From Isoetes taiwanensis (lineage: Eukaryota > Streptophyta > Lycopodiopsida > Isoetales > Isoetaceae), in NCBI GenBank assembly GCA_021234155.1, contig JAJEKV010000064.1:188001-252000 (forward strand): a stretch of DNA of 64,000 nucleotides, given 5' to 3'. Position 1 is the stretch's first letter; each line of letters opens with the position of its first letter. The notes under the pieces are model-generated. The model was given only the letters and a program-made list of their open reading frames with translations, ran no database searches and was not told the origin of the DNA. The position numbers were made by a program, and so were the translations under genes. Below are positions 12,986 to 44,095 of the stretch, piece after piece.

Positions 12986-13218
12986 ATGTTCTTGGAGACC
13001 AAGAGCAAAGCACCCACCATGCTCCCAAAGTACTAACTTGATAGGATCCTCAAACCTCGAGAAATGGGAAATTTTTTCTCATTTTTGTAGTATATGCTAA
13101 GCTAGCAAATGCTTAAAGTGAATTAGTAGCAATTAAAGTGAATTAATAGCGCTTAAAGAAGCAGTTAAAGTGAATTAGTAGCAGTTAAAGAAAAAAAATT
13201 AGTGAGCCAAATAGGATG

Positions 13219-13640: not shown

Positions 13641-13659
13641 CTAGATTAGCTTTCTAATC

Positions 13660-13667
13660 TATTTAAA
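13660..13667 (+). promoter_or_regulatory. TATA-like box upstream of the element 2 histone-like ORF
   Basis: TATTTAAA lies 254 bp before the ATG at 13914 and after the first hairpin group. Element 3 has TATAAATAG in the equivalent place (33100). Function is inferred from position. Confidence 0.4.
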
Positions 13668-13913
13668 CCTCATCTTAAAAGAATTCCCACAGTAGCGAGA
13701 ATTGAACCTCCCACCCACAGGGTTGAACCCCCCCCAAACCCCCCCGTGCCAACCACTGAGGGCGGGCATCGTTTGTGTTTGAATTATAATCCTTAATTAG
13801 ATTTAAGCTGTAATAATGTTAGATAATATTAATGGCCAAGCCTTAGACTTAGAACCAAGACCCTTAAGCTAGATAGAGTCATCATCCTGATAGACACCAA
13901 GCCTCCGATCGAC

Positions 13914-14204
13914 ATGACGCGCACCAAATGCACCCACTCGACTCCCTCGACAAGGCGAAATAGCCGAGGCCAAGGAGGTCAAGGAAACAAGAAGAGGAGA
14001 GGGCGTAACGAGAGCGGGAGGCCAGGGTCAAGAAGCAAGCAGAGCGTAAAGGGTCCAACATTTTGAAGACTCAACAGCCGCACAGTACACACTAAGGGAG
14101 TAACTCTAATGAAGAAAGATATGCACTTACCAATCATATCAAAGGAGAACCTTATTAATTTCGTAAATGATAAAATTTGTTTAATACAACGTGTTTTAGA
14201 GTAA
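13914..14204 (+). pseudogene. Histone H3-like ORF of element 2 (internally shortened, frame-damaged)
   Basis: The ORF starts MTRTKCTHSTPSTRR, like the canonical H3 tail (family start ARTKQTARKS), followed by a basic Gly/Arg/Lys-rich stretch. From about 14030 the translation reads QEASRA, a stop, then VQHFEDSTA, matching helix 2 of H3 (QEASEA...FED). After a one-base loss at 14068-14074 it continues VHTKGVTLMKKDM, matching the IHAKRVT-M-KD segment of loop 2 and helix 3. The lost base turns the element 3 sequence AGCCTGCAC into AGCCGCAC. Helices N and 1 are missing. I read it as a decayed, shortened relative of ORF-A of element 3. The 3' end is uncertain because the frame continues past the usual H3 end. 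Confidence 0.7.
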
Positions 14205-14299
14205 ATTATAACTCATAAAAGTTACTTAATTAAGTTAAGTTATAGAATTCTAGCTTTTGTTTTAGTCAAATTGGAGCTTTTGAGCAAAATTGAGACGAT

Positions 14300-14366
14300 G
14301 TCTCACACGTCAGCCGAGGACAGATTTCTAGATTTTAGGAATCGGGCTGGGCGCAACATGTGAGAC
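14300..14366 (+). repeat. 67-nt hairpin, element 2, copy 2
   Basis: Left arm GTCTCACACGT, right arm ACATGTGAGAC (one G-to-A change in the arm), inner GGGCGC. It lies about 100 bp downstream of the histone-like ORF and exactly 198 bp before the next copy. Confidence 0.85.
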
Positions 14367-14497
14367 CATGCCCAAAAATGCCCAAAACAGCTCCAAATCG
14401 ACCAAGTAAGGGGTCATTCTGCCTAACTCGATGAGTTTAGTGGAATTACAGCCTTAGATCACTTAAATTGAGTAAGCCTAGCCCAATTAGGACCCAT

Positions 14498-14564
14498 GTC
14501 TCACACGTCGCGCCAGGACAGATTTCTACATTCTCAAAATCGGTCTGGGCGCAACGTGTGAGAC
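14498..14564 (+). repeat. 67-nt hairpin, element 2, copy 3
   Basis: Arms GTCTCACACGT/ACGTGTGAGAC are perfect, with the same C/A mismatch and GCGCC/GGCGC inner stem as copy 1; the apical sequence is different. The equivalent pair in element 3 is spaced 199 bp (34570 and 34769). Confidence 0.9.
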
Positions 14565-14970
14565 CTCCAAATTTTGAACCTCCATAACTTGAGCTACAGA
14601 GCTCCAAATCGCCTGAAATTTGTTGCGTTAGGACTGTTAGACAGCCTAAAATCCATTTATGACCTCAAATTAGGATAGAAATGTCAAACCCCATCTCAAA
14701 ATGACCAAAATTGCTCAAACCCTTGAATTGCTTTCCCAAACTGTAGTTTGTTTGTAGATAGAAGCATACCCCATTAGTAGCTAGCTCGCAGCACGCTCTC
14801 GCTCAAAGCTGATGCCTTACTCCTAGGTAGAAGTGCTCAGGAACACCCCTTTGTTATAGTCATCTAGACCTTAGCATAGCAACCCAAGTCCAACTGTTGG
14901 TACACCACCTCTGCTCGAGCCAAAGGCATAAACCTTGACCTAATTTCAGTCCTTCTAATAGAGTTTGACT

Positions 14971-14977
14971 TATATAG
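14971..14977 (+). promoter_or_regulatory. TATA-like box after the second hairpin pair, element 2
   Basis: TATATAG follows the hairpin pair at 14300/14498, as TATAAATAG follows the pair at 34570/34769 in element 3. The next ATG in an open frame is near 15114 and gives only a short peptide, so the downstream gene seems lost. Confidence 0.4.
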
Positions 14978-15169
14978 CCGCCACATTGACACTCCCTATT
15001 GCCAGGATACCTAGAAAGGAGCTAGAGCCTAGAGCTGCCCAAGTCATTCCATGTGTAGAGATTGGACCCCCCCAAACCAACTTTGCTAGGACCTTAGAGT
15101 ATACCTCAAACACCATGAGGGCTTTGCAAAACAACCCTCATGTCATGCCATACCACACGCCCTAATGTC

Positions 15170-18100
15170 CATAGACTTGTAGATTATAGATATGTCTCTA
15201 GTAATGCCGCCGCCGAGCCATCTTGCTTGCTTATAGAGCCCGAATATTGTAGGAGAGCCCTTCAAGTAGACTCTTAGACTCTAGGATACACGAAGCTTTT
15301 TCGGGGACGGGGCCAGAGCCACGACGAGCTAAGGGCGCAACTTCTTGAAGACATCAAGGTCCCAGCCAATGCACAAACAGATAAGGAGAGGAGACCGAAA
15401 AGGCGTACCCAAGAGGGGAAGCACAACGACAAACACCTCAACCGACAAACGAGTAGAACAGACACCACCGCCTATCATCAATCTCCATCAAATGGGAAGA
15501 ATATTGGTAACCAACGGCACCAAGAATGTTCTAGATGTCAACCTCCCCGCTACCACGCCCACGAGCTCACAAAGCGAAAGAGGATCTCAACGCCTTCACC
15601 AACTCGACGCACATGAGTTTCAAATGGAAGAACGCTGAGACAACAAAATACGTGTACAGAAGATGTTAGGCATCGATGTCGCGTTAGCATCACGAAGCTA
15701 GGGCCGAGGGGCATAATCTTCCGTCGAGGAGACAACTCATGGCGACACAGGAGCCGATAGAAACCGGAGGGAAGATCACCACGACCTTGCAGCCCAAAGA
15801 GCTCAAGCGCCAACGCCAACAAAAGGAGTAAACCAAGCTAGGCAACCACAAAGCACCTAAAGGCTGACCAAGATGAGCCTCCAGCTCCCTTGCACCAGCA
15901 GAGAACTTTCATCGGTTCCAAAAGGTAGGAGACCATGAGAGGGAGGAGACGATATCAAGGAACATTTCCGACTGGCCTCAGACGGCACTAGGGGCAAGAC
16001 CAAGGAGGAGAATATTCTGCTCAAACAGAATTCCGGACCCGAACACCTAGAAACCAAAGGAAGGACGGCTTTACTACGCCGCCAAGGAGTGCACTTCGAA
16101 TGGTTAGGACCCAAAGGACGGAGGAGACGACCTAGCCAAAGGTACAAATCACGCAAAGGCGACCGAAGGAGCCATGGTAGGGGCAATGGAGATGACCACA
16201 CTTCCGTGCACGGAGAGCCACCTCTAATAAAGCAAAGCCCAAGCAAATGTGAGTCGCGACTTTCCGAAATTCAACTGCCGGGGGAATGACAATGCCCGCC
16301 ATCGACCACGATCTCGTGAGCTTCAAGACATTCAAGAATGCCCGACCGCAACAGCCGTGACCCTACTCAAGCTCGATCAATGGCACCGCAAAATCAGCAA
16401 TCTTGCAACGATACAATCGCATGTAGGGACGTGAGCGGTTACCGCATTCCTCGCTCGCTGACGAATATACACAATAAGGAGGAGCATCTTTTCAAGGGAT
16501 CACATCGACGAACACTCTTCGCAACTTGAGGTGATCAGCTCGGATCGACATGAAGCTCAACAATAGTAGCAAAGATCTCAAGAAATCCCTGAGTCAACCT
16601 CGAACGAAGAAGATGCAAAGAAACCAAGAATCAAATGCGATAGGAGGAAGGGAAAACCTAGAGGAGTATAAATAAGTAGGTAGATCTTCGTAGTTGTTTT
16701 GCAAAAGTGGATGAATTAAAATCCCAATGTAAATGCGTATATGTCTATTGTATATCTAGGGTGTCCACATATATAGTGGAGAAACATGAGTTTAGAGTCA
16801 TGTTTTACGGATTTAGCGCTTAGATCAGGAAGCTCCTTCACTTCGACTACCAAAGGAGGAAGCAAGGAGGCACAACTATAGCCCAAGATCAAAATGGAAG
16901 AGCAACTACGAGGGAGAAACGACTAGAGGCCAAGCAAACCTTCAACTCCAAATACTTCGGGAAATGCCCTCAAGCAGAAGACTGCTCGGCCACCCAATGT
17001 TAGAATAAGAGACAACACCGATCATGTCAAGATCATCAACGCGCACCGTGACATCGCCGTGGCGCAACACTACCTCTTGTAGCAGTGGCAGCACTTGACG
17101 AACTTATGACATGAGTGGCCTCAACAATGGAAGGAGGAACGCCCCAACATCAACAAGCCAACTAAGAAGGCAACATCTCGACAACCATAATTCCAACTTG
17201 TGGTAATATAGGGGGATGTGCTATGACACGTGTATTAGATGGAGATGCACTTACGAAAGGCACCGCGACGAGGGAGATATGCCCCCAACAACTAGGTGAT
17301 GGCTTCACAAAATCCTACCAAGAATTAGAAGAGAAGAAGCCGACCATATCTCCGACATGTGGCACGCCAAACGCCAAGGTAGAAGCATTCGACGCCTTTA
17401 ACGACAAGGATAGCAAACTCAAGCACCTTCGGCGAAAAGAGAGTTCAAGATAATAGCCAGGCTATTCAACGACAAGAGTATATCTAAGGCAGGTACTTCT
17501 TCAACGCAAGGGTCAAGCTGCGCAGAGATAAGGATCCATCATCCCGACAACGGAGCCATCAGGGAGGAGAGTCATGATGCCTTACTTGCCAAAGAGACCC
17601 AAATGCATAGAAGGACAAAGGTCGAACTGAAAGATGGAGAAGTGCTAGCAACCGACTTCTTCCACGAAGCTTCCCGCAGGCAACAGAGGATCAAAACCGA
17701 CGAGCACAATCAAAGTCACCGGAGGGTACCTCAAGACAAGAAGTCGGCATATAGCACCGTGGAACGTGACAACGTCCAAGCCATGTGATCGAGGGGATCA
17801 AACGAAGAAGTTTGGAAGCTCGATGGAGAACCAACTAGGTGAGGCGAGCCGATGACTTGCACGCGGCCTTGCATGCAACTTGGTGAACCCAAGGATGAAC
17901 GATTCAAAGAACAATCAGAAGAGAACAACCCGCAGGAGTATAGCCAAAGGAATCGCAAGACACCTCAAGAGACGCCTTCAAATAGCTTCAAGTATCATGA
18001 AGGGGGGAACAATTATTGCCCGAGAACAGGATCAGGAAGCAGACCGAAATGTCGAAGCATCAACGACCAGCACACCTTTCGTTGGAATGTGAATGCAAAG

Positions 18101-20300
18101 CGTGTTGTGCCAGAGTCGACAAACATCGGAGGGCCCAAGTATATAAACAAGTTACCCCGGAGTACGAGCCGACGTACAAATAGGAGGATATAAATCGTCA
18201 ACACCATTGCACCGGGAGGAACACCGATGACATTGCCAAGGAGTAGGTGCGCAACTCGAAGGGAGGCACAAGGGAGACCTAATAGCTCTAGTAGTATAAT
18301 TGTAATTATGTAAGCTATATGTTTTGCATGTATAGTTCCCTTGTTATTCCTTCCCTCCCATAGCGTAACAGATCAAAGGAAGAGATGTTATGCAAGTTGC
18401 AGGGGTGAAGCAATCAACATCGTCAACACTCTTCGGGCAACACGATAACGACAAGAGGACTCGACGTATGAGACATCGATGGAGTCGAAGAAACAATATC
18501 GGATACTGAGTCGTCCTTTAGCTGCCAAGACAAAGAGTTCAAGATGAAAGATCTCTTTCAACGGCGCCACCTTCAGGCTTTTGAAAAGCGGCATGAAAGA
18601 TTTCAAGTGATCAACTACACCATCAAGCCACCAGCAATGAGAGGCTTCTAGCGAACAAAGTCAACCTCTACTTCAAAGAGCATCCACCGTCAAGGAGACT
18701 GAAGTATCGAGCGACTCGGAAGAACGTTACCTTGCTCCTTCAAGCAGGCAACAAGTGGATGAGCTCTAGCAAGCTCAAGGATCTAAGGCCACGGGGCCTA
18801 GTAGGTTAAATGTATGGATGGTAACATCCATATTGGGATTAGAAGGCATTTCCAGATATTCTCGCTGAAAGGATTGCCCCAATATTGAGCTAAGCGTCAA
18901 GATTGGGAAGGAAATGCATAGGAGTAACTATAATTATACACGATTGTTAACAGACATCCAATGTATTGAAACCACTTGGTGAGATTGATCTCCTCACTAA
19001 GAAGGAATCATTACTAGGATAATTGTTGACCATGTATAAATCTAGTATCTCCTAAAGAATAATCCAACTGAAAGAAAAGAAGTAATCTAACAAGTCCGGC
19101 CAACTTGTTACGATGACATCAATTCGATTGGTAGGAATATTCCAAGAGTTTAAATAACTAAGAAAGGGGGAATCTCTAGAATAATAAAATAATAGTACAT
19201 GCAAGGTACATCTAAAATAAGAATTATAGTAATCAAATAGTCTTTTGAGACAAAAGGAATTGTCGTCATGACAAAACCTTGTGGTTTAGAATCGTTCTAA
19301 CTAAGTAGATAACCCATAACTATATTGAAATAAATGATAACATAATATGTGCATCCATCTTAGATGGTTATATATGTTAGCTAAGGCTAGTAACTTAATG
19401 CGCTAAGTAAGAAGCGTATAACCTCTTAAGGGGAGAGAATAGATATGACGTTGTGTGCAATGTCATTGAAGGGGTGCAGGACCATTTTCTTTTCGAAGAA
19501 AGTGGGAGGGCTCAATCTTATGATTGAACGTACTTGCACCGAATTGACTGACCCGTAGAATAGAGTTCACTCCGGCCGAAGCGAATAGAGCGTAAGATAG
19601 ATAGATAGATAGCTCAGGAGGCCTTCAACGTGCGAGACTGACGTAGTAGCGAACTACACCAACGAAGTGGAGCAAAACTATGGGAGCAATGAACGACCAA
19701 GTCACCTCCAAACTACTCCACGCCGGCTCAATGAGTGGATGCGTTTTAGCCTTAGGTAAGGTATGCGCATGTATTATAAGCCTTAATGTGTCTTATTGAT
19801 AAGTTAAATATAGACCCTAATAACTGCATAGAAATTGTTGTACGTATATGTATCATAGGGAAATAAGTTAAATAACAACGATAATGTGAAGTAGCATGTT
19901 AATTAATCCTTCAAGGGATGCAATTCCTTCCAAGGATAGCTATAGGTCCTTATAAATATAAATAGAAAATAGAATTGATATACTTAAGTGCATCTTAGGG
20001 ATATACTTCCAAGGGTAATGCAGGACCCAAGGAAGAGAATAAGAAGCACATCTAATTCTTGTGTATGATAATTAAAACCTTGTCTATGTAACAATAGGTC
20101 TAAATCAGGGTTATTGTTTAAATAATCGCGATCTAAAAGTGGTCAAATATTGCAAAGCTTAGAGTAAATATAATTGTACTATCGGAAGTAATGTATCCGA
20201 TACTATGATAATGTTAATTCATAAATATTACCTTAGGGTAATTATGTTAATCACATGCATTAAGGGAGCCGAAAAAAAAAAAAAAAATTGGCTCGTGCAT
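15170..20300. other. Element 2 internal region without recognisable coding
   Basis: About 5 kb with many short ORFs in all frames, no gag, protease, RT, RNase H or integrase motif, and a shift to AT-rich sequence after about 18800. The 15250-18700 part is GC-richer and purine-rich and could be an eroded coding region, but no motif survives. A (GATA)n microsatellite sits near 19592-19612. Confidence 0.6.
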
Positions 20301-20319
20301 GTCGATTTGTGTTTAGATT

Positions 20320-20860
20320 AGTTTCATGTGTAGTTAAGATTAATCATGCGATGCAACCTATGCTTGGTATGGATTGCATGCGTTGTTACCGATGATGAGA
20401 CCACTACGGTGATCTCTAGGGCGGGTGTAATGTCAATGTAGGCATGACCGCGTTTCACCGACGAAAGTGGAAGGTAGATTAGAAAGTCTACTGTCCCCAC
20501 GGAAGTAGACGCGACCTCGAGAAAAGGAGGTCATTAAGGAATGCATTGATAGGAAAGGCACCTTTAGCCCCATATATGCTTTGATAGGAGGAATCTATCC
20601 TTCACGCCCCCACGCGAAGGATATCCTCCACGCCGGGCAACTAGAGGTGTAGGCATGAGCTGCATATAGGCATATAGGCTCCTCCACGGCCATAATGGAA
20701 GATCCACCCTCTTCCTACGGAGATTAGCCATGCATCCATGTAGATAGGTGGGTGGTCACCATATAACCAAAATTTTTTTGTAATAATTAATAATAGGTAG
20801 TGTCGACCAAGCAGCCAATAGAGCGCCCGGAGGGCAAGGAGGTCGAACTCCATTTAAAGG
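20320..20860 (+). repeat. Element 2 3' region shared with element 3
   Basis: This segment aligns with 41640-42200 of element 3, including GTTGTTACCGATGATGAGAC followed by CACTACGGTGATCTCTAGGG. It lies after pol in element 3, so element 2 keeps the non-coding 3' end of the family while lacking pol. Confidence 0.85.
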
Positions 20861-20895
20861 CTTGCAACACAAATTTTGTTATAATGTGTTGCAAG
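20861..20895 (+). repeat. 3' hairpin, element 2, copy 1
   Basis: Arms CTTGCAACACA and TGTGTTGCAAG, 11 bp, enclose a T-rich loop. A second copy lies at 21139-21170 and the element 3 counterpart at 42204-42237. Confidence 0.85.
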
Positions 20896-21138
20896 GGATG
20901 AAGGGTACCTTAGAAGTGTAAATTTTGTATGAAATTGATAAACTTTGATAAACTTAAATGTTGTATTAAGTAAGGTTAATAATTACCTTATGTGGATTAA
21001 GTTATGATGTGATAAGTTAATAGGATAACGAAATAGTAATGTCTTAAACATTACCTTAGAGTAATTCTAATAATTAAGATAGTAAGTATGTAATTATAGA
21101 TATTGTAAAATTAATGCAGGATTTTAAGGTGTGAGACC

Positions 21139-21170
21139 GCAACACAAATTTTGTTGGAATGTGTTGCAAG
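21139..21170 (+). repeat. 3' hairpin, element 2, copy 2
   Basis: GCAACACA and TGTGTTGC arms around AATTTTGTTGGAA; near-identical loop to the element 3 copy. It sits about 300 bp before the 3' LTR. Confidence 0.8.
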
Positions 21171-21452
21171 GAATGAAGAGTACCTTAAATAATAATTGTA
21201 TATGAAAGTGTTAAATTGTGATAAACTAAATGTTGTGATAATAGAAACTAATAAGTACCTTATTTTAGTAGAAGTTACTTAATTGACAACTTATTTGATA
21301 ATGTAATGGCGTAATAATGATTTAAAAATATTATCTTAAGGTAATCGTAATAAATGTGTAAGTATTATAGTAGTATATCGTATGCATCGGGTTGATTGCG
21401 GTTAGGAAGATTCCAAGGTGGGAGAACCACCATGCCGCGACAAAGATCATTT

Positions 21453-21466
21453 CAAGGTGGGGAGAA
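21453..21466 (+). promoter_or_regulatory. Element 2 polypurine tract
   Basis: AAGGTGGGGAGAA directly precedes the 3' LTR, and the identical sequence precedes the element 3 3' LTR. It primes plus-strand synthesis in LTR elements. Confidence 0.8.
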
Positions 21467-23175
21467 TGTGATGTTCCAAAGACGCGATATCGCCCCCGTG
21501 ACGTATATTGTAATCGCCACGCCACGCCATACACGCCACCCCGACCGACGGTGCGCCGTGTAGCCAAGTGGGTAGCCCCTAGGGGAAACTTGCTAAGAAT
21601 GTGCATTAGTATTAATGTGCACATTTTCCAATGTACACATTAATGTGGGCACACATTTCCATGTGGCCACTTGATGCCAAGTGGGCCATACCCATAGGTG
21701 CAATTAATGTGCACATTTTCCAATGTACACATTCATTAATGTGCACACATTTCCATGTGAGCACATTTGGGTGCACACATTTCCATGTGGGCACATTTGG
21801 CCACCTAGCCCTTAAAGGCAAGTGGGCCCTTTCCCAATTATCCCACATGCCTAAAGGGGATAATTGGAAACCCTAGCCAACCCCCTTGTCTATTTAAGTA
21901 GGAGAACCCTAACTTGCCCATTTTTCGTTTCTAGGGTTTTAGAGCTCTGTTTTGACTGCCCCAAGGGTCAAAACCGCCTCCCAGACTCTGTCTGAGAGAA
22001 TTGCATCATTAGTTTTCCTTGATTCGAGCATCTCAGCAGGATGGTCGAGCTCAGGTCAGGAGGAGGAACTCAAGGATCAGGTATTTAGGCAATTTAGTAG
22101 TCTAAACCCCATTTCAGCCATCGAATCAGTAGGTTTAGCCTCTTAAATTGCCCATAGCAGCCCTCTAGATCTCTAGATAGCAGATTCTAACTAAAGAACC
22201 TAACTCTATGATATAGATTAGATCTTGTTCTTTAGTTCTTCTGTGATGTATATGGATGATGTATCTCTATGAACTCTTTGTATTGGGAAGGGGGGTAGAG
22301 ACCTAAAGCTTGGTAGTAGATGCTCCTAGATTAGCCTCTCTAGCACACTATAGATGCGGCCTGTGCACAAGAGCCACACCTGGTTGTGGGTGAAGGGGCC
22401 AGACTGGCTTATAAGGAGGTTCGTGTTCTGACTCTTGAACGATCCCTATGGTGTGTTAGTGCTACCGGGGATCATTGTGACTAGGTCTAATGGCTTGCCA
22501 CTGCGTGTGGGCAAGGCATGGGCTCGACACTCGTGAGGTGGTGAATATGACCTTCCATTGAGTTCAAGTCGAATACGGGCAGTGGCCCTCTAGTCACCTT
22601 GAGTCAGCATGGAGATCTCTGGAGGGAGTGATCCCTACCTGCCCCATCGGAACTGGGGAGATGCAACCCAGGATATAGCCCCCTTGGCTATGCATCCGGC
22701 GGGCTACAGTCAGGTCCCAACACTTTTCAGCCTACTCTGCAAAGTGTGCACAGGAGGGGCGGATGGAGTGGACAACCCTATGCCATGTTCTTATGCCAGC
22801 CAAATCCATTGCCATGAATTCTGTCTGCAATGAACTCTGGAGACCCAAGCCCGTCAGTCATCCCTTTGAGTCTGAGCCTTGGGTAGGATTCCCTATGTGA
22901 TGTGCTGATCTTTGTCTATGCAGATATGTGGAGGACCATCCTTCGTGATGGTCATATGATGTTGATGTATGTGCTACTGACATGTATGTTTACGCTTCCG
23001 CAGCTAGGTAGGCCCTGAGGGAGACGGGGTGCAATGACCCTTCCACTCTTCCCACTGGAACCCGTCACGGTTGCAGTGTCATGTGGAGGGCCCTGTATTA
23101 GCATGGAGCTGGTATGGGGGATGAACTCCTGTTTGTATACGGTGAGGGCACCGTATGCGAGTAGGGGACGTCACA
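21467..23175 (+). repeat. Element 2, 3' LTR
   Basis: About 1709 bp, ending GACGTCACA followed by target duplication CATAC. It keeps CTG/CAG words that are altered in the 5' LTR, for example CCTGCCCC near 22638 against CCGCCCC near 12430. Confidence 0.9.
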
Positions 23176-30978: not shown

Positions 30979-32538
30979 TGTGACGTTCCAAAGACAAAGA
31001 TACGCCCCCGGACGTACATTGTAATCGCCACGCCACGCCATACACGCCACCCCGATTGACGGTAATGCCAACGATAGCCGTAAGTAGCCCTAGGGGCAAC
31101 TTACTAGGAGTGTTCATATATTATTAATGTGCACATGTGCACATTAATGAGGGCACACCTTTCCATGTTGGCATATTTTGCCACCTAGCCACTAAAGGCA
31201 AGTGGGGCCTTTCCAATTATCCCACATGCCAAATTGGGTAATTGGAAACCCTAGCCTAAACCCCCATGTCTATTTAGGGTAGGAAAACCCTAGCTTGCTA
31301 GTTTTCGGCCCTTAGGGTTTTAGAGCTCAGTTTGGCTGCCCCAGAGCCAAAACCGCCTCCCGACACGCCCAAGCCAATTGCGCCATCGGGCTTCCACTGA
31401 ATTCGATCAGCTCAAAGCCAGGATGGTTGAACTCAGTCGAGGAGCCACTCAAGGATCAGAGTTTGGTCAATTTAATAGCTTAAACCGCCTTCTAGTCATA
31501 GAATCAGTAGGGTTTAGACTATTAAATTGCCCATAGTAGCTATCTAGATCTTAGATCTCGGACACTAACTAAAGAACCTAACTCTATGATTAGATCTAGT
31601 TCTTTAGCTCTTTCCAGGATATATTTGGATGATGTATTTCTGTGAACTCCTTGTATTGGGAAGGGGGTAGAGGCCCCAAAGCTTGTAGTTGATGCTCCTA
31701 GAGTAGCCTCCCTAGCACACTTGTAGATTCGGCCTGCGGTACAAGAGCCACACCTGGTTGTGGGTGAAGGGGCCGACCGCTAAGAAGGAGATTCATGTCC
31801 TGATTCTTGAACGATCCCCCTGGTGTGTAAAGCCTACCGGGATCATTGTGACTAGGTCCGATGGCTTACCACCGAGTGCGGGTAAGGCATGGGCTCGACA
31901 CCCGTGGAAGTGGTGTACACTTTCCGTGGGGTTCAATTTAATACGGCAAAGGCCCTCTAGTCACCTTGAGTTAGCATGTAGATCTCCGGAGGGAGTGATC
32001 CCTACCGCCCCATCGAACTGGGAGGATGAGACCGGAATAGCCCCTTCGGCTATGCATCCGTGCGGGCTCTGATCAGTCCCGACACTTTTCAACCTACTCG
32101 CAAAGTGTGCACGTGGGGGGCGGATGGAGTGGACAACCCTATGCCATGTTCTTATGCCCGGCCAAATCCATTGCCATGAATTCTCGTCCCTTAGCGAACT
32201 CACGGAGACCCAAGCCGGGGATCATCCTTTGAGTCTGAGCCTTGGGTAGAATCCCCTATGTGATGTGCTGATCTTTGTCTATGCAGATATGAGGAGGACC
32301 ATCCTTCGAGATGGTCACAGGATGTTGATGTATGTGCTACTGACATGTATGTTTACGCTTCCGCAGCTAGGTAGGCCCTGAGGGAGACGGGGTAGAATGA
32401 CACCTTCACTCTTCCCACTGAGACTCGTTACGGGTGCAGTGATATGTGGAGGGCCTTGTATCAGCATGGAGCTGGTGTGGGGGAAGAACTCCTGTTTGTA
32501 TACGGTGAGTGCACCGTATACGAGTAGGGGACGTCACA
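30979..32538 (+). repeat. Element 3, 5' LTR
   Basis: About 1560 bp, partner of 42522-44095. The 3' half is clearly similar to the element 2 LTRs (for example CCACACCTGGTTGTGGGTGA). Several CTG/CAG words of the partner are altered here, for example ACTCGCAAAG near 32096 against ACTCTGCAAAG near 43648. Confidence 0.9.
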
Positions 32539-32539
32539 G

Positions 32540-32551
32540 TGGTATCAGAGC
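32540..32551 (+). promoter_or_regulatory. Element 3 primer-binding site, tRNA-Met
   Basis: TGGTATCAGAGC, complementary to the 3' end of initiator tRNA-Met, begins two bases after the LTR end. Confidence 0.9.
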
Positions 32552-32742: not shown

Positions 32743-32809
32743 GTCTCACAGCTCGCGCCTGGTCGCAAAACTAACTTTTTGTTTTGAAGCGAGGCGCAAG
32801 CTGTGAGAC
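32743..32809 (+). repeat. 67-nt hairpin, element 3, copy 1
   Basis: Arms GTCTCACAGCT and AGCTGTGAGAC pair over 11 bp; a C/A mismatch follows, then GCGCCT/AGGCGC, CGC/GCG and AAAAC/GTTTT at the tip. Compared with element 2, ACGT/ACGT in the arms is replaced by AGCT/AGCT, so both sides changed together. Confidence 0.9.
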
Positions 32810-32930: not shown

Positions 32931-32997
32931 AGATTCTCCCTCGCGCCTGGTCGCAAAACTAAACATTAGTATTGGAACGAGGCGCAAGCTGTGAGAC
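32931..32997 (+). repeat. 67-nt hairpin, element 3, copy 2 (left arm decayed)
   Basis: The right half GGCGCAAGCTGTGAGAC and inner GCGCC-GGTCGC are intact; the outer left arm has decayed. It lies 188 bp after copy 1. Confidence 0.75.
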
Positions 32998-33213: not shown

Positions 33214-34422
33214 ATGGCCCAACCAAACAGATCGCGAAGGAAGCGCCGCCTGCTAAACCACCAGCCACCGGTGACAGAGATCATTCGGAAGATGCTTCGT
33301 GAGAGGCTCGCAAGAGGGGATCGTTCGCCTTCGGACGAAGAGCAAGACACCTCTGATTTGATCGATGTCTTCAACCAGCAGGTGGAGGACGAGGCCACAT
33401 CACCAAACTCCATGGACGATTTAGACGAGGGAGGTGTATGAAGAAATAGAGCGAGATCCCAAAGAGGAACAAGCAGATGAGCAAGTGATTTGGGTTTGGA
33501 GCCAAATGGAGGTAGCAGACCTTAGAAGATTCATCAGGAAGTACGAGCGCCGGCAGAAGAGAAGGGAGGACAAAAAGAGGAAAAGGAAGGAGGAGGAACA
33601 AAAGACAGCAGAAGAAAAGAAGGAAGCAAAAGGGAAGTTCGTGGCTGGCATAAGGAGAACAAAGGATCGCCGCCAAGGAAGAGGGCCGAACCCCAACATT
33701 ATCATCAAGGAGCGCAACCCCGACGAACCCCCAAACCCTTCCGACGACTTCTTCCGATGGGGACTTCAACCCTAACGCTGCGGTGGAAGCTCTTCCAAGA
33801 ATCCAGGTGACGAAGCAAGAAGTACCCGAAAGCAGCCGCACTGAAAGCAACCCCAAAGAAGACCAAGTGCGTAAGCCCCCGAAAATCTCGCATGGGATAG
33901 AAAGAAGCAACCACGACCCGCCCGGGAAGCCTACGTCACCGACAGGGTGAAGATTTATGAGAGAAAGATGAGGGAGCACGAGGCCTACATGAAGAAATGG
34001 GAGGCCTATAACAAATATTATGAAGAAAACAGAGTTAAGTTCATCGAGGGAGGGCGACCAACGGCAAAGAAACCTTAAGGCCGCCACCACCGGCCCAAGG
34101 TTCCCAAGCCGCCACCCAGGAAGAAAGCGGATAGGAAGGAGGTAGAGAGAAGAGCGTTAAGGGAGATTAGACACTTCCAGCGCAGCTTCGGTCTCCTAAT
34201 CCCCCGTGCCCCCTTCGCTCGGTTGGTGCGTGAAGTTATGCAGGCCTATAGAACAGACTTTAGAGTCACGCATCGAGGCCGCTAGCAATGCAAGAGGCGG
34301 CTGAGGCAAAGATAGTACAACATTTTGAAGATTCAACAGCCTGCACTATCCACGCCAAGCGGGTAACCTTGATGCGACAAGACATGAGTCTTGCGACCCG
34401 CATTAAGGGAGAACGCCCTTAG
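33214..34422 (+). CDS. ORF-A: long-tailed histone H3/CENH3-like protein carried by element 3
   Basis: About 400 codons with at least four frame breaks (33441, 33775, about 33950, 34283). The N-terminal 300 residues are highly charged: [12 protein letters not shown], then acidic stretches, then a Lys/Glu coiled-coil-like region (33530-33640) and a [12 protein letters not shown] region near 34000. The C-terminal 100 residues form a near-complete H3 histone fold. Helix N reads [11 protein letters not shown] (34154 on), helix 1 [15 protein letters not shown], loop 1 [10 protein letters not shown], helix 2 [16 protein letters not shown] (34288 on), then [19 protein letters not shown], ending GERP. 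EIRHFQ, LLIP, QEAAE, FEDS and VTLMR-D are CENH3-like choices, whereas loop 1 has canonical H3 length. H3/CENH3 proteins form nucleosomes; CENH3 marks centromeres. A start at 33214 fits the ATG after the TATA box. Role in the element is unknown; centromere targeting is inferred. Confidence 0.8.
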
Positions 34423-34569: not shown

Positions 34570-34636
34570 GTCTCACAGCTCGCGCCTCGTCGCGAAACAA
34601 AAAGTTAGGATTGAAGCGAGGCGCAAGCTGTGAGAC
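34570..34636 (+). repeat. 67-nt hairpin, element 3, copy 3
   Basis: GTCTCACAGCT/AGCTGTGAGAC arms, C/A mismatch, then an eight-base-pair GCGCCTCG/CGAGGCGC stem. It lies 147 bp downstream of the ORF-A stop. Confidence 0.9.
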
Positions 34637-34768: not shown

Positions 34769-34836
34769 GTCTCACAAATCGCCATGCCGTCATAAAACAA
34801 AAAGTTAGGATTGAAGCGAGGCGCAAGCTGTGAGAC
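34769..34836 (+). repeat. Hairpin, element 3, copy 4 (left arm partly decayed)
   Basis: Left GTCTCACA is kept, the rest of that arm has drifted; the right arm AGGCGCAAGCTGTGAGAC is intact. Spacing from copy 3 is 199 bp, matching 198 bp in element 2. Confidence 0.8.
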
Positions 34837-35148: not shown

Positions 35149-36622
35149 ATGGCAACTTCTGATTTCCAGAGATGGTACAGCGCCAGCGCTCATGCTGCTG
35201 AGGCCGACGTCGACCAAATCTTCCAGATCTTCAGGAAGGAGGTAGACGTCCAAGCAACCTTGCACGCGACCCCAGCTTATAGTAGAGTCCTGACTGAGTT
35301 TCAAGCTAGGGTAGAACCAGCGCTAGTGCAACTCCCCCCTTGTGTAGGATATTTTGTTCCTAGACAGTCCCTGCAGGCAGCATTAGACGATGTCCCGAGC
35401 ATCGCCAAATACCTCACAAACAAAGCGCACCGCACACCTGAGCCAATGGTCCTAACTGTCAACAGGACCAAGTACTTCTCTTTCAACACCGCCACGGCAA
35501 TCTTTCTCACCCACCGCGTCGAGAACATCGGGGGAAACCTCCATTCCCCATGGACGTAGATCCATTAGCCGTGCTTGTGAGAACAACGGCTCCTCACACA
35601 AAGACTGAACGGGAGCAGAAGGGAAGGAAGAAGACTTCGGATGAACAGAACTCAGGAGGAGGAGGAAGAAGATGTTGAGCTCGACCTAGCGAGGAGCAAA
35701 TGACAAGCGGAGCGAGAGTGGCAAGACTTCGAAGAAGCCGGCAGACTCTCGTGAGTCGCGCCACCCCGGGTTAGGCATCACAAGCCTAGCTCCCATTATA
35801 ATCGAAGGTGAGGAGTTTCTGCTCCTAAGCGACATTCAAAACCTCCCGAGTGCGAGGAAAGGGAATACCGACCGAAGAGTTGCTGCACCAACTCCGAAGA
35901 ACGGACTTGGACGACTTCATCGCGTCAGGAGAGTCCCGACTTCCCCCCAAGTAAGGGAAGCCGACACTTACGGGAGAGTTTACCTCCGACATCCAAGCCT
36001 ACAAACAACATCAGGCAGATCATGGAGGCGGCATAAGGCCGAGAACAAGCTACCGACGGAGGAAGAGTTCCTTGCTCTCCAGAAACGATGGGGATCCGTT
36101 ATGCGACCTCAAACATCCTAACGGCAAGCTCGGCCCAGCAAAGACCTCCCCGGATAGACAGCGACCGACCTCGGAGGGCTTCAAAGAATGATCAATGACT
36201 ACAGGAGCTCACCACCTGGAGGTTGATGATTTCGAAGCGCATTAACCGAGCCGGATACCGCGGTAGCCGAGACCCATCTCGCAAATCCACAAATTACGCT
36301 TATTACCGCCATTGCTGATGGATGGAAGAATAGCGGTTATCCACCGCAAATTCACCCCCGCAGGCGAGGAAGGAGTATCGCTGATTGCACTCTCGTGATT
36401 CTACAGGCATGCACGGTTACCCCTAACACCGAAAGTATGCAATCCTCGTGAAAAGAGCGGTAGCACTCGACGCCTTCGACTTCGCCATACCTTACAAAGC
36501 GGCGGCAAGACCTGCCGGATGGCAGCCTTTATACCTCCCACCGCAGAATAGAAGATTTAGCAAGAGCATTACAGGTGGATCTCCACTAATGTCCTTAGGA
36601 ACTTGGGCCATTCAAAGGGAAC
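35149..36622 (+). CDS. ORF-B: unrecognised protein between histone-like ORF and gag
   Basis: The first 136 residues (35149-35559) are intact from MATSDFQRWYSASAHAAEAD and are rich in short helices; after a frame change the translation continues with DPLAVLVRTTAPHTKTE, a Lys-rich and then acidic stretch, and further open segments to about 36622. I do not recognise any domain. It has its own TATA box and a good start context (TCAATGG). A splice-like acceptor (TATGCAG) at 36862, just before gag, allows the idea that ORF-B is spliced to gag. It could be an accessory protein acting with ORF-A or an extended gag N-terminus. Confidence 0.5.
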
Positions 36623-36862: not shown

Positions 36863-37764
36863 AGAGGCCTGAGCGCAGGAGAACGACAACTGCGGGAACT
36901 TACAGGGGAACAGAGCCCGCCCAGGCCACGCCCGGCAAGAAACCTGCTTGAAGAATTTGGACAAATGACCCCAGAAGAAGAAATATCGCAAATGAGGACG
37001 GACCTCGAGCAGATAAAGGCTTTGCTAGCCGCACAAGCAGGAGCAGGTTCGGTGGGTAACGCTCAACTGCCGCAAGCATCAGCTCGGAGAACAGGTAGAG
37101 ACAAGAAGAGGAGCAAGAGAGGAAGGTCCCCCAGCTCGGACTCCTCCGACTCAAGCTCAGATTCAGACTCCGATTCTGAGGAAGAAGAAGAGCAGAACCA
37201 AGTCCGAAAGCGCATCGAAAAGGCGTAGGAACCACCCGGAGGGACGACAAAGGGACACAAGAACCTCTGACTACCAGAAGAAAGTAGACTCTGCATTGGG
37301 AAATGTTTGGAAGGCCAGGAAGCTCGAGCAATTCTCAGGCGAGAACAGGTCAGGCATGGAAGCAGAGGCTTGGCTTGACGAGATGAGCGAATACGGCAAT
37401 GCCTATGGTATGAAGGATAAGGATAAAGGCAGGGTGGCAACAAATAACCCGGGGAGCAAAGACGCATTTGTGGAAGGGCTATGCCAAGGCTCATGGCTTA
37501 AGCAGGGATGCTTGCAGGTTCAAGAAGTTTGCTAAAGCCTTCAAGCGCCATTATGTCCCAAGAGAGCACAAGTCCAGTATGATGCAGCAGTTCTACAGGT
37601 TGCAGCAAGGCAACAAGTCAGTACAGAAATACACAGAGGAATTTATGAGGCTAAGGCTGTATGTGCCAAAGTTAGGAGAGAAGCACGCAGTGGAAAGCTA
37701 CATTGAAGGTCTGAATGAGGAGATCCGCAAGCTTGTAAGGGCAATAAACCCAAGAACGATTTAG
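36863..37764 (+). pseudogene. Element 3 gag
   Basis: The first stretch (to 37228) has a coiled-coil-like part (EEEISQMRTDLEQIKALLAA) and then a Ser/Asp/Glu-rich tail. After frame changes, 37296-37764 carries the Gag core: ARKLEQFSGENRSGMEAEAW, FKRHYVPREHKSSMMQQF, RLQQGNKSVQKYTEEF. The beginning follows a splice-like acceptor and has no ATG in frame, so the start is uncertain. Confidence 0.8.
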
Positions 37765-38610
37765 AGCGAGTCCAAGGCAATAAGTTTGCAAGGAAAAGGA
37801 CCTCGTAGAATAGTAGGGGGAGGCAGCAGCATTACCAAGATAAAGGCAAAGGCGTGAGGCGCGCTTCAGCCCGAGAACGGCCAGCCCAGTGACCAGCCCA
37901 GAGCCCCATATAGTGGCAATCAAGGGAAGCAGCAGGAGAAGAAGCAGGTATCTTTCAAAGACAAACAGGAAGGGTCAAACTACTCCAAAGCAGTGCGATC
38001 CTTTCTGCAGGCCATGCCCAAGGAAAAGAGACAGGAGTGCATAGAAAAGCAGCTTTGCTTCCGTGTGTTTCCAGCCAAAGCCATAGAACAAATGAATCGC
38101 CCATATGTCATGAGTGCAAATACTAGCAGAGTTGGGAGATTGGGACACTTTGACCGACGATCGGCGGCGGGAGGCCCGCGACTACATTCAGGGTGAGTGT
38201 CATATCTTTGCCGCAATAGATACAGAGCAAGCAGAGAGCCAGTATAAAGTAATTTCCACAGTGGGAAAGGCCAAGGCCAAGTCATTTATAGTCCTAATAG
38301 ATTCGGGAAGTAGCCATAACTTTGCATCTCCCAGAATGGTTCAAATGTTGAAGTTGAAACCATTAAAGTCAAAGCCAAGGCCCGCTTGTCTTAGCAAGTG
38401 GAGCAAAGAAAGGCGGCGGGCGTGTAAAAAGAATCAACTTTGACATCGACTTGCCGGGGATTAAGATCCAGATGGGGGCGGAGGTAATGGGCATCGGCAA
38501 GTACGACTTGATAATAGGTATGGAGTACCTTGGACCAGCAGGGGCCATTATTGATTGTGGAAAGCGGAAGGTGACCTTCCCAACACCCGACGGCAAGATC
38601 ATTGAGATAA
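37765..38610 (+). pseudogene. Element 3 zinc-knuckle region and aspartic protease
   Basis: A knuckle-like segment near 38050-38110 (LCF, then a C and H pattern) is frame-damaged. The protease follows: FIVLIDSGSSHNFAS near 38285-38330 contains the catalytic D-S-G triad. The downstream GMEYLGPAGAIIDC segment near 38517-38560 is the flap and second-half region of gypsy proteases. It cleaves the polyprotein. Confidence 0.8.
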
Positions 38611-38699
38611 TGTAAAGAAGTTGTTCCCATCATGCGCAGTATGTCTTCTAAACGGTCGCTCAAGTGCATCAAGAGTGAGCGTAGCATACATCTTCAAGC

Positions 38700-40130
38700 T
38701 TGAGATTAGCGAGCCGGAATTGGAAGGAAGCAAAGAAGACAAGATGCTCGCCAAGTTGCCGGTGGCAAATAGCTAAGTTGATCACGGAGTTCCACGATCT
38801 CTTTCCAGATGAGATCAAGCAGCTCCCTCCTTATAGGGGAGTCGAGTGCGAGATAGCACTCGAACCAGGAACAAAGCCCACAAGCAAGGCTCCATATAGA
38901 ATGACAACGCAGGAATTGTCGGAGCTAAAGAAGCGAGCTAGGAGCTGCCGACCTAGGTTTCATTAGACCTAGTGTCTCACCGCTCGGAGCCCCCATTCTT
39001 TTGTCAAGAAGAAGGATGGATCTTTGAGGATGTGCATAGACTATAGACAGCTTGAATAAGCACACCATTAAGAACAAGTATGCGCTCCCAAGATCGAGAT
39101 GACTTGATGGATCAGCTTCAAGGAGCAAAGATCTTCTCCAAAATTGACTTAAGGTCGCTTATCATCGATAAGGATAAAGGAGGAGGATATCCACAAGACC
39201 GCCTTCGGGACGCTTGTATGGGCATTACGAAGTTCACAAAGTGATGCCTTTCGCTTATCAAATGCTCCCGCAACGCTCATGAGGCTCATGAACGATATCT
39301 TCGTGGAGTTCCCCGGACACCTTTGTGATTGTTTTCTTTGATGACATTTTGGTGTATAGCAGATCCCTTGAAGGGCACGCGGCAACACTTGAGAAGGGTG
39401 CTAGAGAAGTTGAGAAGACACCGGTTATGCGCCAAGTTGTCGGTGCCACCATAATGAGAAGGTGGAATACCTTGGTCATGTGATCTCGCAGAAGGCATCT
39501 CGACGGACCCCGCCAAGATTGAAGCGGTGATTCGATTGGCGGCACCAAGAATGTGCACGCAGGTCAAGTTTTCTCGGTCTAGCGGTACTACAGAAGTTCA
39601 AAGAACTTTGCTAAGATAGCAGCCCGTTAATGCACCCTACGAGGCGAGAAGGTGAAAGATTGGGTAGAGCATTGGCACAAGAAAGCCCAAAAGGGGTTTG
39701 AATTGTTGAAGGAAGCTTTAACAACAGCCCCAGTCTTAACCCTGCCGGACCCGGAGAAGGATAAGCTTGTAGCAACAGATGCGAGTAAGATAGCTACAAA
39801 AAGTGCTTATGCAAGAAGAACGGTGGTAGCGTATGATTCCGTGAAGATGAACGACGCCGAGACGCCACCCCCAACGCACGATCGAGAGTTGCTTTGCAGT
39901 TGTCAGGGCATTAAGAATATGGAGGCACTACCTCTTGGGAAGGAAGTTCCAATTGGATACCGACCATCAGAGCCTCCAATATGTATTCACGCAACCACAC
40001 CTCAATCTGAGGCAGCGGAGATGGATGGAGTTCCTCGAAGAATATGACTTTGATATAGTCTACAAGCCGGGGAAGCTCAATGTGGTAGCAGATGCGCTTT
40101 CAAGGCACCCCCTGACAACTAGAGTGCATT
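38700..40130 (+). pseudogene. Element 3 reverse transcriptase and RNase H
   Basis: RT begins with ELKQLPPYRGVE-like text (as EIKQLPPYRGVECEIALEPG) near 38810, followed by KKDGSLRMCIDYRQL near 39010 and the catalytic FFDDILVYSRS near 39337-39370. RNase H follows with KAQKGFELLKEALTTAPVL near 39685, the ATDAS motif near 39775, HDREL and [10 protein letters not shown] near 39955, ending [10 protein letters not shown] near 40085. Many short indels break the frame between 38930 and 39650. The domain order is complete, so the ancestor was autonomous. Confidence 0.9.
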
Positions 40131-41570
40131 GCAACGCAATTTCAACGCTCTCCAGCGACTTTGGTAAGAAGATTGAAGAGTCCTTGCCAATGGATGTGGA
40201 TTTCGGGGAAGTATGGGTAAGCCTCTCTAAGGAGGCTAGAACAGATAAAGAACGGGAGGCCTTCAAGCATTATAAGAAGGAAGGCAACCTGTTATACCAT
40301 AAGAACAAGTTGTGCGTACCCGAATCATCAGGTGTAAGGAAGTTGATCCTCCATGACACGCACAACAGCCCAATAGCCGGCCATGCGGATTCATGAAAAC
40401 ATATTTCAAAGTCGCAGCGGCTATTATTGGCCAGAATGAAGAAGCAAATAGCTCGCTACATCAAGGAATGTCACTATGCCGCCAGACGGCGCGAGCAGCG
40501 GCAATTCCGGGGGCATTAGAGCCGTTAGCGAGTACAAACGCTAAGTGGGAGGTAATCAGCATGGATTTCATCACAGGACTCCCAAGAACAAATGAGAGGC
40601 AAGGATGCCTTGATGGTAGTGGTCGACAAGTTGTCAAAGATGGCACATTTTGTGCCTTGCGACCACGAGATACAGCTATGGATACAAAGAAAGCTCTTCA
40701 CCAAAGAGATCTTCGTGCTTCATGGCATGCCAAGGGAGATTATCTCCGGCAGAGATCCGGTTCATGAGTGCCTTTTGGCAAGACCTCTTTCGCGACGATT
40801 CGCACCAAGCTATCCATGAGCACGCTACAGATCATCCTCAGACGGATGGCCAAACGGAGCGGACCAACAGGATCTTAGAAGACATGCTACGAAACTATGT
40901 CTGGAATAAGCAAAGTATGTGGGAAGAATTCATTCACTTGGTGGAGTTTGCATACAATAGCACCAAGCAGGAATCGTCCCAGATGTCGCCATTTATGATC
41001 AATTATGGCTATCGTTTAACTCCGCACACTAATTTGGCACAACCCCGTCAAAAGTAGAAGTTTCGCAGCAGATGTTGGCCGATATGCAGCAGCTCGTGGA
41101 AGAAGTTCGAGGTTATCTGCTAGCAGCAAGAAGTCGTCAGAAGAGCATCGCCGACAAGCATCGAACAGTCAGAGAGTTCAAAGTTGGAGATGATGTTTGG
41201 CTCAAGATCAAGGTAAAGCAGGCGAAGCTCAGGATTGGGAATTGCAAGAAGCTTGCTCCAAGGTGGGCTGGACCCTTCAGAATAATCAAGAGAGTAGGTA
41301 ATCAATCCTACAAGTTGGAATTGCCAGCACACCTAAAGATTCATAAGGTCTTCCACGTGAGTTTGTTGAAGAAGCATACTCCAAACCCAGACGAAGTCTT
41401 GGACACTCCAACGTTGTTGGAAATGACGGAGGAGCAGCTGGAAATAGTTCCAGAAATGATTCTTGATAGAGCTTTTAAGAAGACAAGGAGGTCCGAATTC
41501 CTCCAGTATTTGGTCAAGTGGAAACACTTACCAGTGGAAGACGCCACGCGGGGTACTTAAGAAAGATTTA
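40131..41570 (+). pseudogene. Element 3 integrase with GPY/F module and chromodomain
   Basis: The zinc-binding part has [11 protein letters not shown] and, after a frame break, KECHYCRQTARA. The core has the first Asp in ISMDFITGLP, the second near 40750 (frame-damaged) and the Glu in HPQTDGQTERTNR. The AYNSTKQESSQMSPF block follows. Then come VGDDVWLKIK, APRWAGPFRIIKRVGNQSYK (GPY/F) and FHVSLLKKHTP. The chromodomain (about 41455-41560) contains FLQYLVKWKHLPVEDATR and stops at 41560, where an aromatic residue would be expected. The chromodomain directs integration to marked chromatin in this group. Confidence 0.9.
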
Positions 41571-42521: not shown

Positions 42522-44095
42522 TGTGACGTTCCAAAGACAAGATATACGCCCCGGGACGCACATTGTATCGCCACGCCACGCCAGCACGCCACCCCGATTG
42601 ACGGTAACGCCAACGGATAGCCGGTGTAAGTAGCCCTAGGGGGCAACTTACTAGGAGTGTTCATATATTATTAATGTGCACATGTGCACATTAATGAGGG
42701 CACACCTTTCCATGTTGGCATATTTTGCCACCTAGCCACTAAAGGCAAGTGGGGCCTTTCCAATTATCCCACATGCCAAATTGGGTAATTGGAAACCCTA
42801 GCCTAAACCCCCATGTCTATTTAGGGTAGGAAAACCCTAGCTTGCTAGTTTTCGCCCCTTAGGGTTTTAGAGCTCGGTTTTGGCTGCCCCAGAGCCAAAA
42901 CCGCCTCCCGACGCACGCCCCAAGCCGAATTGCGCCATCGGTTTCCCACAGATTGATCAGCTCCAAAGCAGGATGGTTGAACTCGTGTCGAGGAGCCACT
43001 CAAGGATCAGGTATTTGGTCAATTTAATAGCTTAAACCGTCTTCTAGTCATAGAATCAAGAGGTTTAGACTATTAAATTGCCCATAGTAGCTATCTAGAT
43101 CTTAGATCTCGGACACTAACTAAAGAACCTAACTCTATGATTAGATCTAGTTCTTTAGCTCTTTCACGGATATATTTGGATGATGTATTTACGTGAACTC
43201 CTTGTATTGGGAAGGGGGTAGAGGCCCTAAAGCTTGTAGTTGATGCTCCTAGAGTAGCCTCCCAGCACACCGTGAGATTCGGCCTGTGGTACAAGAGCCA
43301 CACCTGGTTGTGGGTGAAGGGGCCAGACTGGCTAAGAAGGAGATTCATGTCCTGATTCTTGAACGATCCCCCGGTGTGTAAAGCCTCACAGGGATCATTG
43401 TGACTAGGTCTGATGGCTTACCACCGAAAGGGTAAGGCATGGGCTCGACAAGTGAAGTGGTGTACACTTTCCAAAGGTTCGATCGAATACAGGCAAAGGG
43501 CCCTCTAGTCACCTTGAGTTAGCATGTAGATCTCTGGAGGGAGTGATCCCTACCTGCCCCATCGGAACTGGGAGGATGAGACCCAGGAATAGCCCCTTCG
43601 GCTATGCATCCGGCGGGCTACAGTCAGGTCCCGACACTTTTCAACCTACTCTGCAAAGTGTGCACAGGAGGGGCGGATGGAGTGGACAACCTAATGCCAT
43701 GTTCTTATGCCAGCCAAATCCATTGCCATGAATTCCGGCCCCCGAACGAACTCTGGAGACCCAAGCCGTCAGTCATCCTTTGAGTCTGAGCCTTGGGTAG
43801 AATCCCCTATGTGATGTGCTGATCTTTGTCTATGCAGATATGAGGAGGACCATCCTTCGAGATGGTCACAGGATGTTGATGTATGTGCTACTGACATGTA
43901 TGTTTACGCTTCCGCAGCTAGGTAGGCCCTGAGGGAGACGGGGTAGAATGACACCTTCACTCTTCCCACCGGAGACTGGAATTACGGGTGCAAAGATATG
44001 TGGAGGGCCTTGTATCGCGATGGAGCTGGTGTGGGGAAGAACTCCTCGCTTGTATACGGTGAGTGCACCGTGATCTCGCAGTAGGGGACGCCACA
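42522..44095 (+). repeat. Element 3, 3' LTR
   Basis: About 1574 bp, partner of 30979-32538. Ends GACGCCACA and is followed by CCAGG, resuming the LINE. Confidence 0.9.

Follow-up and report, generated by a model that had tools for sequence, protein, structure and literature searches.

An LTR Retrotransposon with Two Additional ORFs

The window, that is, the whole stretch of 64,000 nucleotides of Isoetes taiwanensis DNA that was analysed, contains a chromodomain Ty3/Gypsy LTR retrotransposon at positions 30979-44095. Its features are as follows:

30979..32538, plus strand: 5' LTR (TGTGACGTTC...GACGTCACA), 92.3% identical to 42522-44095 (75 mismatches, 48 gap letters)
32540..32551, plus strand: primer binding site TGGTATCAGAGC, read from the sequence
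33214..34422, plus strand: ORF-A, an N-terminal extension and a C-terminal H3 domain, with several frame changes in the window copy
33214..33250, plus strand: broken H3 tail start (MARTKQTARK in near copies), recognised by comparison with near copies
34079..34282, plus strand: H3 domain, helices N and 1 to loop 1, plus some linker ahead (PF00125, 40.2 bits, E 4.8e-10, profile positions 25-77)
34285..34419, plus strand: H3 domain, helices 2 and 3 to the C-terminus (PF00125, 44.3 bits, E 2.6e-11, profile positions 82-122)
35149..35556, plus strand: ORF-B, first open part, family unassigned, without a Pfam match
37414..37761, plus strand: gag (capsid; PF03732, E 3.9e-15)
38114..38612, plus strand: protease pieces (RVP_2, 22.0 bits, above the cut-off of 20.3, and 18.2 bits, below it)
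39292..39480, plus strand: reverse transcriptase fragment (RVT_1, 16.3 bits, under the cut-off of 29.6)
39631..40393, plus strand: RNase H pieces (PF17919, E 1.3e-15; PF17917, E 1.7e-15)
41033..41557, plus strand: integrase C-terminus with chromodomain (SH3_Tf2-1, 80.5 bits; Chromo, 27.0 bits, cut-off 25.1)
42522..44095, plus strand: 3' LTR, pairing with the 5' LTR at 30979..32538

The LTR termini are TG...CA, a purine tract precedes the 3' LTR, and the 4 bases CCAG flank the element on both sides (30975-30978 and 44096-44099). We take the primer binding site, TGGTATCAGAGC, to be of the plant initiator-Met type. The domain order gag, RVP_2, reverse transcriptase, RNase H, SH3_Tf2-1 and Chromo is that of a Ty3/Gypsy chromovirus, and TG...CA LTRs, a primer binding site and a 5-bp target duplication, by which chromoviruses are also recognised, were found in the family as well, the 5-bp duplication being that of the second element described below; Pfam gave no integrase core in the two broken pieces tried (40556-40816 and 40620-41054). 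In other words, the family shares the Gag-PR-RT-RH-IN-chromodomain order, the LTRs and the 5-bp target duplication with the chromoviruses, including the plant centromeric CRM elements. Upstream of gag, the element has two additional reading frames, ORF-A (33214-34422) and ORF-B (from 35149); we know of no described chromovirus with a histone gene. ORF-A, ORF-B and the gag-pol region are all frame-broken in the window copy, which is a decayed example of a larger family.

A second element of this family lies upstream in the same window:

11257..23175, plus strand: second element of the family, with the same LTR type and CATAC at both ends (5-bp duplication)
13914..13955, plus strand: H3-tail-like start (MTRTKCTHSTPSTR), with the pattern M.RTK.T, reading MTRTKCT
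about 14053..14152, plus strand: histone 3' end, the same histone as in ORF-A of 30979-44095

Pfam found neither gag nor pol in the six plus-strand pieces of this element that were tested, and it is probably a non-autonomous relative that still holds a histone remnant. The pattern M.RTK.T was seen once, against 0.017 expected per window. When the histones of the two elements are compared over 32 gap-free, stop-free codons, pS is 0.77 and pN is 0.11 (Fisher 1.6e-8), a pattern absent from the two other frames. The mismatches fall at 7/32, 4/34 and 16/34 of the three codon positions (permutation P 0.0015).

ORF-A Ends in a Histone H3 Domain

Histone H3 is the protein around which DNA winds. The preliminary description, which was made from the sequence alone, held that ORF-A ends in an almost complete H3 fold, and the profile search confirms this: both halves of the domain lie above the cut-off of 26.4 bits for the Pfam Histone profile, which covers the core-histone family. 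The halves are in different frames, separated by a single frame change near loop 1/helix 2. Among the best solved chains, the first half matches H3 and CENP-A (cnp1; best 60 of 173) and the second half matches H3 (best 60 of 176). The fold is identical to canonical H3 at 50/92 residues, with one X at the break. In a set of 129 H3 relatives, biased because it was gathered by similarity to the query, the window histone keeps 37/45 of the sites conserved in at least 90% of the sequences, 16/41 of those conserved in 50-90%, and 0/14 of those conserved in less than 50%. The window copy also keeps all eight four-helix-bundle residues and 7/10 DNA contacts, and it is identical at only 13/24 H3-H4 core positions.

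Searched against proteins, ORF-A matched nine, all H3-like or CENP-A-like, none of which was taken as an element protein. At E 1e-10, the histone core matched 1005 proteins (of the 120 listed, the best scored 106 bits), and the RNase H piece of pol matched 1076, the best being 75% identical and lying on a 612-base contig. Neither the histone nor the RNase H piece gave any match among viral contigs.

Copies and Relatives across the Host Genome

A DNA search with the window ORF-A gave 1883 first-look candidates, which are not copy counts, and 40 were scored: the window copy and 39 others, with 84-93% identity across nearly the full length. Twenty of the 39 near copies were fetched. The histone is open in one frame in seven of these (L030, L031, L033, L038, L042, L046 and L048) and not in the other 13. 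L031 has a single open frame from MARTK to the stop, and L038 and L046 are mostly open but in another frame at the start; the last few residues of L046 are altered. The exact 30-base DNA for MARTKQTARK stands at the start of 6/20 near copies, and its first 18 bases (MARTKQ) at the start of 15/20; in L031, ARTKQTARK is followed by R in place of S10. In this window subtype, ORF-A thus reads as an H3 with about 300 amino acids between the start of its tail and its fold. Because ORF-A opens with an H3 tail in the window subtype, the tail-like start in 11257-23175 is accounted for.

The histone itself was also searched against the host assembly (1,658,258,908 bases in 1110 contigs), which gave 8704 first-look candidates, again not copy counts; scores were computed for 150. 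Eight of the loci extracted in this way (L001-L008) are canonical H3 genes, and many other listed matches sit within frames of 400-494 amino acids. From the 150, 20 relatives were fetched for their long frames, and so do not form a random sample; all 20 have an open frame of 401-494 amino acids with H3 at its end. Their N-termini fall into the types PRFK (15), KQVY (4) and NTK (1). An LTR start motif is present in 19/20, a primer site in 16/20 (one mismatch allowed), and a stretch resembling the window LTR, mostly of 58-160 bases, in 20/20. Within 10 kb, gag-pol-like sequence was found in 16/20 and ORF-B-like sequence in 19/20. L010 keeps the histone and lacks ORF-B; its RVT_1, RVP_2, RNase H, H2C2 and Chromo (32.9 bits) matches exceed the Pfam cut-offs, and rve reaches 29.6 against 32.6. 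Repeats of 5 bp stand at the element ends in L022, L031 and L038, and the LTR pairs of L010, L022, L025, L031 and L038 are 92-97% identical over the matched pieces; in L028, no 3' LTR was found within the fetched stretch.

An H3-domain protein is therefore encoded at numerous loci within a single genome, in several subtypes and with intact frames. The earlier claim of a retrotransposon with an H3 gene is strongly supported, both by the PF00125 match and by the histone in further copies of the family, so that neither of the two outcomes named beforehand as refuting it came about. We conclude that a chromodomain Ty3/Gypsy lineage is predicted to encode, upstream of gag-pol, a protein of 400-460 amino acids that consists of an element-specific N-terminus and a C-terminal H3. 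Its histones differ greatly in their distance from the host: L010, L025 and L028 share 83-85% of 102 residues with host H3 (86-89% of the 88 fold residues), and the window subtype is 56% identical. For the N-terminal part, no known fold was recognised: a structural model of ORF-A from 17 rows reached a pLDDT of 55.2 and matched nothing in the PDB at E 0.001 or better.

ORF-B (35149-36640; L022:3606-5015; L028:3623-5089) is open at 470-489 amino acids in L022 and L028, and would be a second protein of the lineage, without an assigned family. The window ORF-B matches that of L022 at E 8e-8 in a single comparison, and that of L028 at only E 0.053. A Pfam search of ORF-B gave no match, so no second histone was seen there, and its structure prediction on its own was poor (pLDDT 44.9).

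As a side observation, a window-type histone piece at L024:752-958 lies upstream of a KQVY-type element, the two subtypes standing side by side.

Selection on ORF-A

Between subtypes, or between an element and host H3, the dN/dS of the histone is 0.01-0.06 (7/16 pairs computable, the rest being saturated). For the N-terminal part it is 0.10-0.16 between relatives (4/12 pairs, the rest again saturated). In one window-type pair, the N-terminal dN/dS is 0.30 and the histone has no amino-acid change. Among the seven open window-type copies, a selection of open frames that favours a low dN, 10/21 pairs differ by 1-9 synonymous changes and by no amino acid. All of the remaining 11/21 pairs include L033, with two residues changed, or L046, whose end is altered; the changes lie near the C-terminus. 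These values show strong, histone-like purifying selection on ORF-A, strongest in the H3 domain, and we read them as signs that the H3 gene was kept working for a long time.

They bear directly on a further alternative, namely that a host H3 transcript was picked up and has since been carried without function. LTR elements are described as capturing host genes in the part of PMC7264820 considered here, and many of the near copies are broken. However, the dN/dS of 0.01-0.06, together with histones in L010, L025 and L028 that are still 83-85% identical to host H3, is not the pattern of a passive fragment; frames are intact in several subtypes, and the histone is kept in both window elements. Conversion by host H3 is an unlikely source of the low dN/dS, because about 0.9 of the synonymous sites differ between element and host H3 in 4/4 pairs. 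On these grounds, passive capture appears close to refuted and is extremely improbable.

H3 or CENH3?

The preliminary description had further called the histone CENH3-like, and on this point the evidence is divided. Three plant CENH3 and host H3 can be told apart at 27 positions. Of these, the window subtype is CENH3-like at 12, H3-like at 3 and neither at 12, and four relatives are H3-like at 19-20. The binomial P for the CENH3-like count is 0.003 or 0.01, depending on the background rate, and no background row reaches this count: of the 106 that have eight or more changes, P0033 comes next with 10. As a fraction of the changed sites, however, the window subtype (0.50) is exceeded by the H3-like protein P0033 (0.53) and equalled by the salmon CENP-A P0094 (0.50). 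The residues shared with plant CENH3 (HTR12) are those of EIRHFQ, LLIP, T-x-EAL and VTLMR, and 2/3 plant rows have the MARTK start seen in the window subtype.

On the other hand, loop 1 of CENH3/CENP-A is longer by at least one residue and has Trp where H3 has Phe84. Both the Trp and the extra residue are present in the plant CENH3 rows of the alignment, which have a GG-type end. The window subtype, judged from its open copies, has Val at the Trp site, a loop 1 of canonical length and the end RIKGERP. In a 50-row tree, it forms a long branch (1.29) without a supported place; the remaining 12 element histones cluster together next to canonical H3, with support of 100/97. Constraining the window subtype with the three plant CENH3 gave a tree 1.3 log units above the free one (AU 0.54), constraining it with the other element histones gave one 7.1 log units worse (AU 0.33), and with CENH3 plus a Volvox protein 5.7 log units worse (AU 0.33). 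In a separate tree of the joined window pieces, AU was 0.44 for plant CENH3, 0.47 for fish CENP-A and 0.13 for H3. The earlier claim thus stands in part: the window subtype seems to lean toward CENH3 in its residues, it lacks the loop-1 hallmarks and would not be a CENH3, and the trees do not separate the origins.

CRM elements are characterised by insertion into centromeres only. For the present family, a centromere-biased insertion, as had been proposed, is unsupported: the 40 scored window-type copies are spread over 34 contigs, and for the 23/40 on contigs of known length a uniform spread is not rejected (KS P 0.24), in what is a weak test without centromere positions. The idea that a CENH3-derived histone loads at centromeres, or builds centromere-type chromatin, draws on the 12 CENH3-like against 3 H3-like positions and on the slight gain from grouping with plant CENH3. 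It has against it the Val and the canonical loop-1 length, the cost of adding the Volvox protein, the place of all 12 other element histones beside canonical H3, and a distribution of copies in which that weak test saw no centromere-like clustering. We regard such a centromere role as quite improbable and place it last among the functional readings that we weighed.

Comparison with Known Systems

Large plant Gypsy elements with an acquired host-type domain have a precedent. According to the parts of PMC9289625 considered here, Ty3/Gypsy elements of Phalaenopsis carry a conserved AlkB-type domain in an additional ORF; they encode an RNA (m6A) demethylase, thought to counter host control, whereas the lineage in the window encodes a histone. 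In the same study, 15 unusual domains passed the filter among the LTR elements of 121 angiosperm genomes, and the part examined, which does not name all 15, mentions no histone among them. The passages of PMC12786077, a review of additional ORFs, that were examined do not mention an element-coded histone. In term searches, the word histone was absent from the main text of PMC7264820, PMC3726574 and PMC5408684, and from PMC8566536, the genome paper of I. taiwanensis. More generally, no title or abstract opening in the literature searched, which left preprints and most subscription journals outside, describes a retrotransposon-borne histone.

A likeness is also found in viruses. As described in part of PMC9145170, single H3s occur in xenomavirus, DSLPV1 and others; they too are an H3 alone, and some have longer N-terminal tails. 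The helix-2 chaperone site is altered in both cases, reading SAIL or TAIL in three of the viral H3s and FAIL or HAIL in the relatives described here (PMC9145170, in the same part, for the viral sequences). The viral H3s belong to DNA viruses, occur sporadically and are 73-87% identical to a possible host H3 (PMC9145170, likewise), whereas here an LTR lineage has the histone at many genomic places and about 300 amino acids ahead of the H3. Reverse-transcribing elements would in this way join the mobile and viral systems that bear histones.

Retrotransposons are usually viewed as targets of host chromatin, and here one appears to supply a chromatin part. This makes testable the question of whether a mobile element alters its own silencing or target choice by means of a histone variant. 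Such elements may also be a source from which new H3 variants, perhaps of CENH3-like form, could emerge independently of the host's own H3 genes. Taken as they stand, the sequences suggest that these elements shape the chromatin they inhabit.

What Might the Element Histone Do?

The explanation that we find best overall, and somewhat likely to be right, is that the H3 of ORF-A joins nucleosomes of the element and hampers its silencing. The ORF-A protein would pair with host H4 and enter nucleosomes on the element's own DNA, in new copies or in copies being transcribed. There, the foreign tail and the extension would stand in for the normal H3 tail and alter how the chromatin is read. Such a copy would be harder to silence and would remain open to the transcription or integration machinery.

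We think that protection from H3K9/H3K27-type silencing would be the likeliest benefit, because ARKS, which forms the K9 and K27 contexts of H3, is absent throughout 19/20 open relatives, L010 included. The sole ARKS among the 20 is that of L028, in the linker before the H3 fold (within VARKSGSQYK), and is possibly a K27-like remnant. Outside the window subtype, traces of the tail are limited to a possible M.R.K.T and RTK..STGGK; the PRFK types may retain MPRFKLT at the start, and RTK..STGGK lies ahead of the fold in L009 and L027. This distribution suggests that escape from K9 and K27 methylation matters in most subtypes. A general loss of the K9 context was considered and rejected, as the window subtype retains ARTKQTARK. 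Since that subtype keeps ARTKQTARK and L028 has ARKS, escape from K9 methylation cannot account for everything. Also counting against the preferred explanation are the identity at only 13/24 H3-H4 core positions in the window copy, the 13/20 near copies in which the histone is not open in one frame, and the N-terminal part without a recognised fold.

Chromodomains read the ARTKQTARK peptide when K9 is methylated. The retention of this peptide by the window subtype would therefore suit a landing pad, in which the element histone sits in chromatin and its tail or extension is read by the chromodomain integrase that the element encodes, so as to guide new copies. The chromodomain that this needs is present both in the window and in L010. 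However, ARKS is missing in 19/20 of the other open relatives, chromodomain-bearing L010 among them, and the window-type copies lie on many contigs, with the 23 testable ones fitting a uniform spread. A landing pad is second in our order of preference, and we consider it unlikely.

The histone might instead compact the element's cDNA or RNA in the particle or the pre-integration complex, as viral histones do. The basic H3 domain is strongly constrained, and there is a precedent in accounts of some giant viruses, whose DNA is organised by histones. Against this, H3 alone requires H4, and Pfam found no second histone in ORF-B; the single viral H3s are themselves thought, in the part of PMC9145170 considered, to act with host histones. 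Packaging comes third, ahead of the centromere role, and seems improbable.

Returning to nucleosomes that hamper silencing, a bolder form of this preferred reading is that the lineage builds its own chromatin: an H3 variant joined to a domain of the element's own and held under histone-grade selection across several deeply diverged subtypes, one subtype moving toward a CENH3-like form, and copies wrapped in element-made nucleosomes. This broader picture is conceivable, and we incline slightly against it.

Hairpins around ORF-A, Sequence Quality and Other Features

Hairpins of about 67 nt flank ORF-A in both window elements:

32743..32809, plus strand: hairpin 1 before ORF-A (-43.8 kcal/mol, z -9.6)
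32931..32997, plus strand: hairpin 2 before ORF-A, 5' arm decayed (z -3.5)
34570..34636, plus strand: hairpin 1 after ORF-A (z -8.0)
34769..34836, plus strand: hairpin 2 after ORF-A (z -3.9)
13219-13285, 14300-14366 and 14498-14564: hairpins in 11257-23175, before and after ORF-A

Exact outer arms were found six times, against 0.01 expected. Folding of nine stretches gave z of -6 or below for five, -3.5 and -3.9 for two others, and weak values (-2.1 and -0.35) for the last two. The stem cores of the two window elements, AGCT and ACGT, differ by paired changes, and two stem pairs vary between C-G and G-C among seven aligned copies. The covariation score was reached by 1/500 shuffles, a value drawn from related copies with few events behind it, and the number of pairs changed on both sides is not unusual (343/500 shuffles). 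Rfam at its gathering threshold gave no match in 30500-45000. The 20 other relatives showed no hairpin with exact arms, so the hairpins seem to be markers of the window subtype that the histone does not need; perhaps they serve translation or packaging.

The LTR pairs also bear on the quality of the sequence. The pair 11279-12968 and 21491-23172 differs by 45 gap events and 33 mismatches, and the pair 30979-32538 and 42522-44095 by 51 gap events and 58 mismatches; one gap, CTACC[T]GCCCC, recurs in both. Part of the frame breaks and LTR gaps may be sequence error of the nanopore-based assembly rather than purely biological decay.

Two other features of the window should be mentioned. An ORF at 45613-46473 encodes a reverse transcriptase (RVT_1, 85 bits) that we label LINE-type. 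At 59199-61542, there are nested long inverted repeats, with arms of up to 336 nt that are 92% complementary, perhaps a foldback element.
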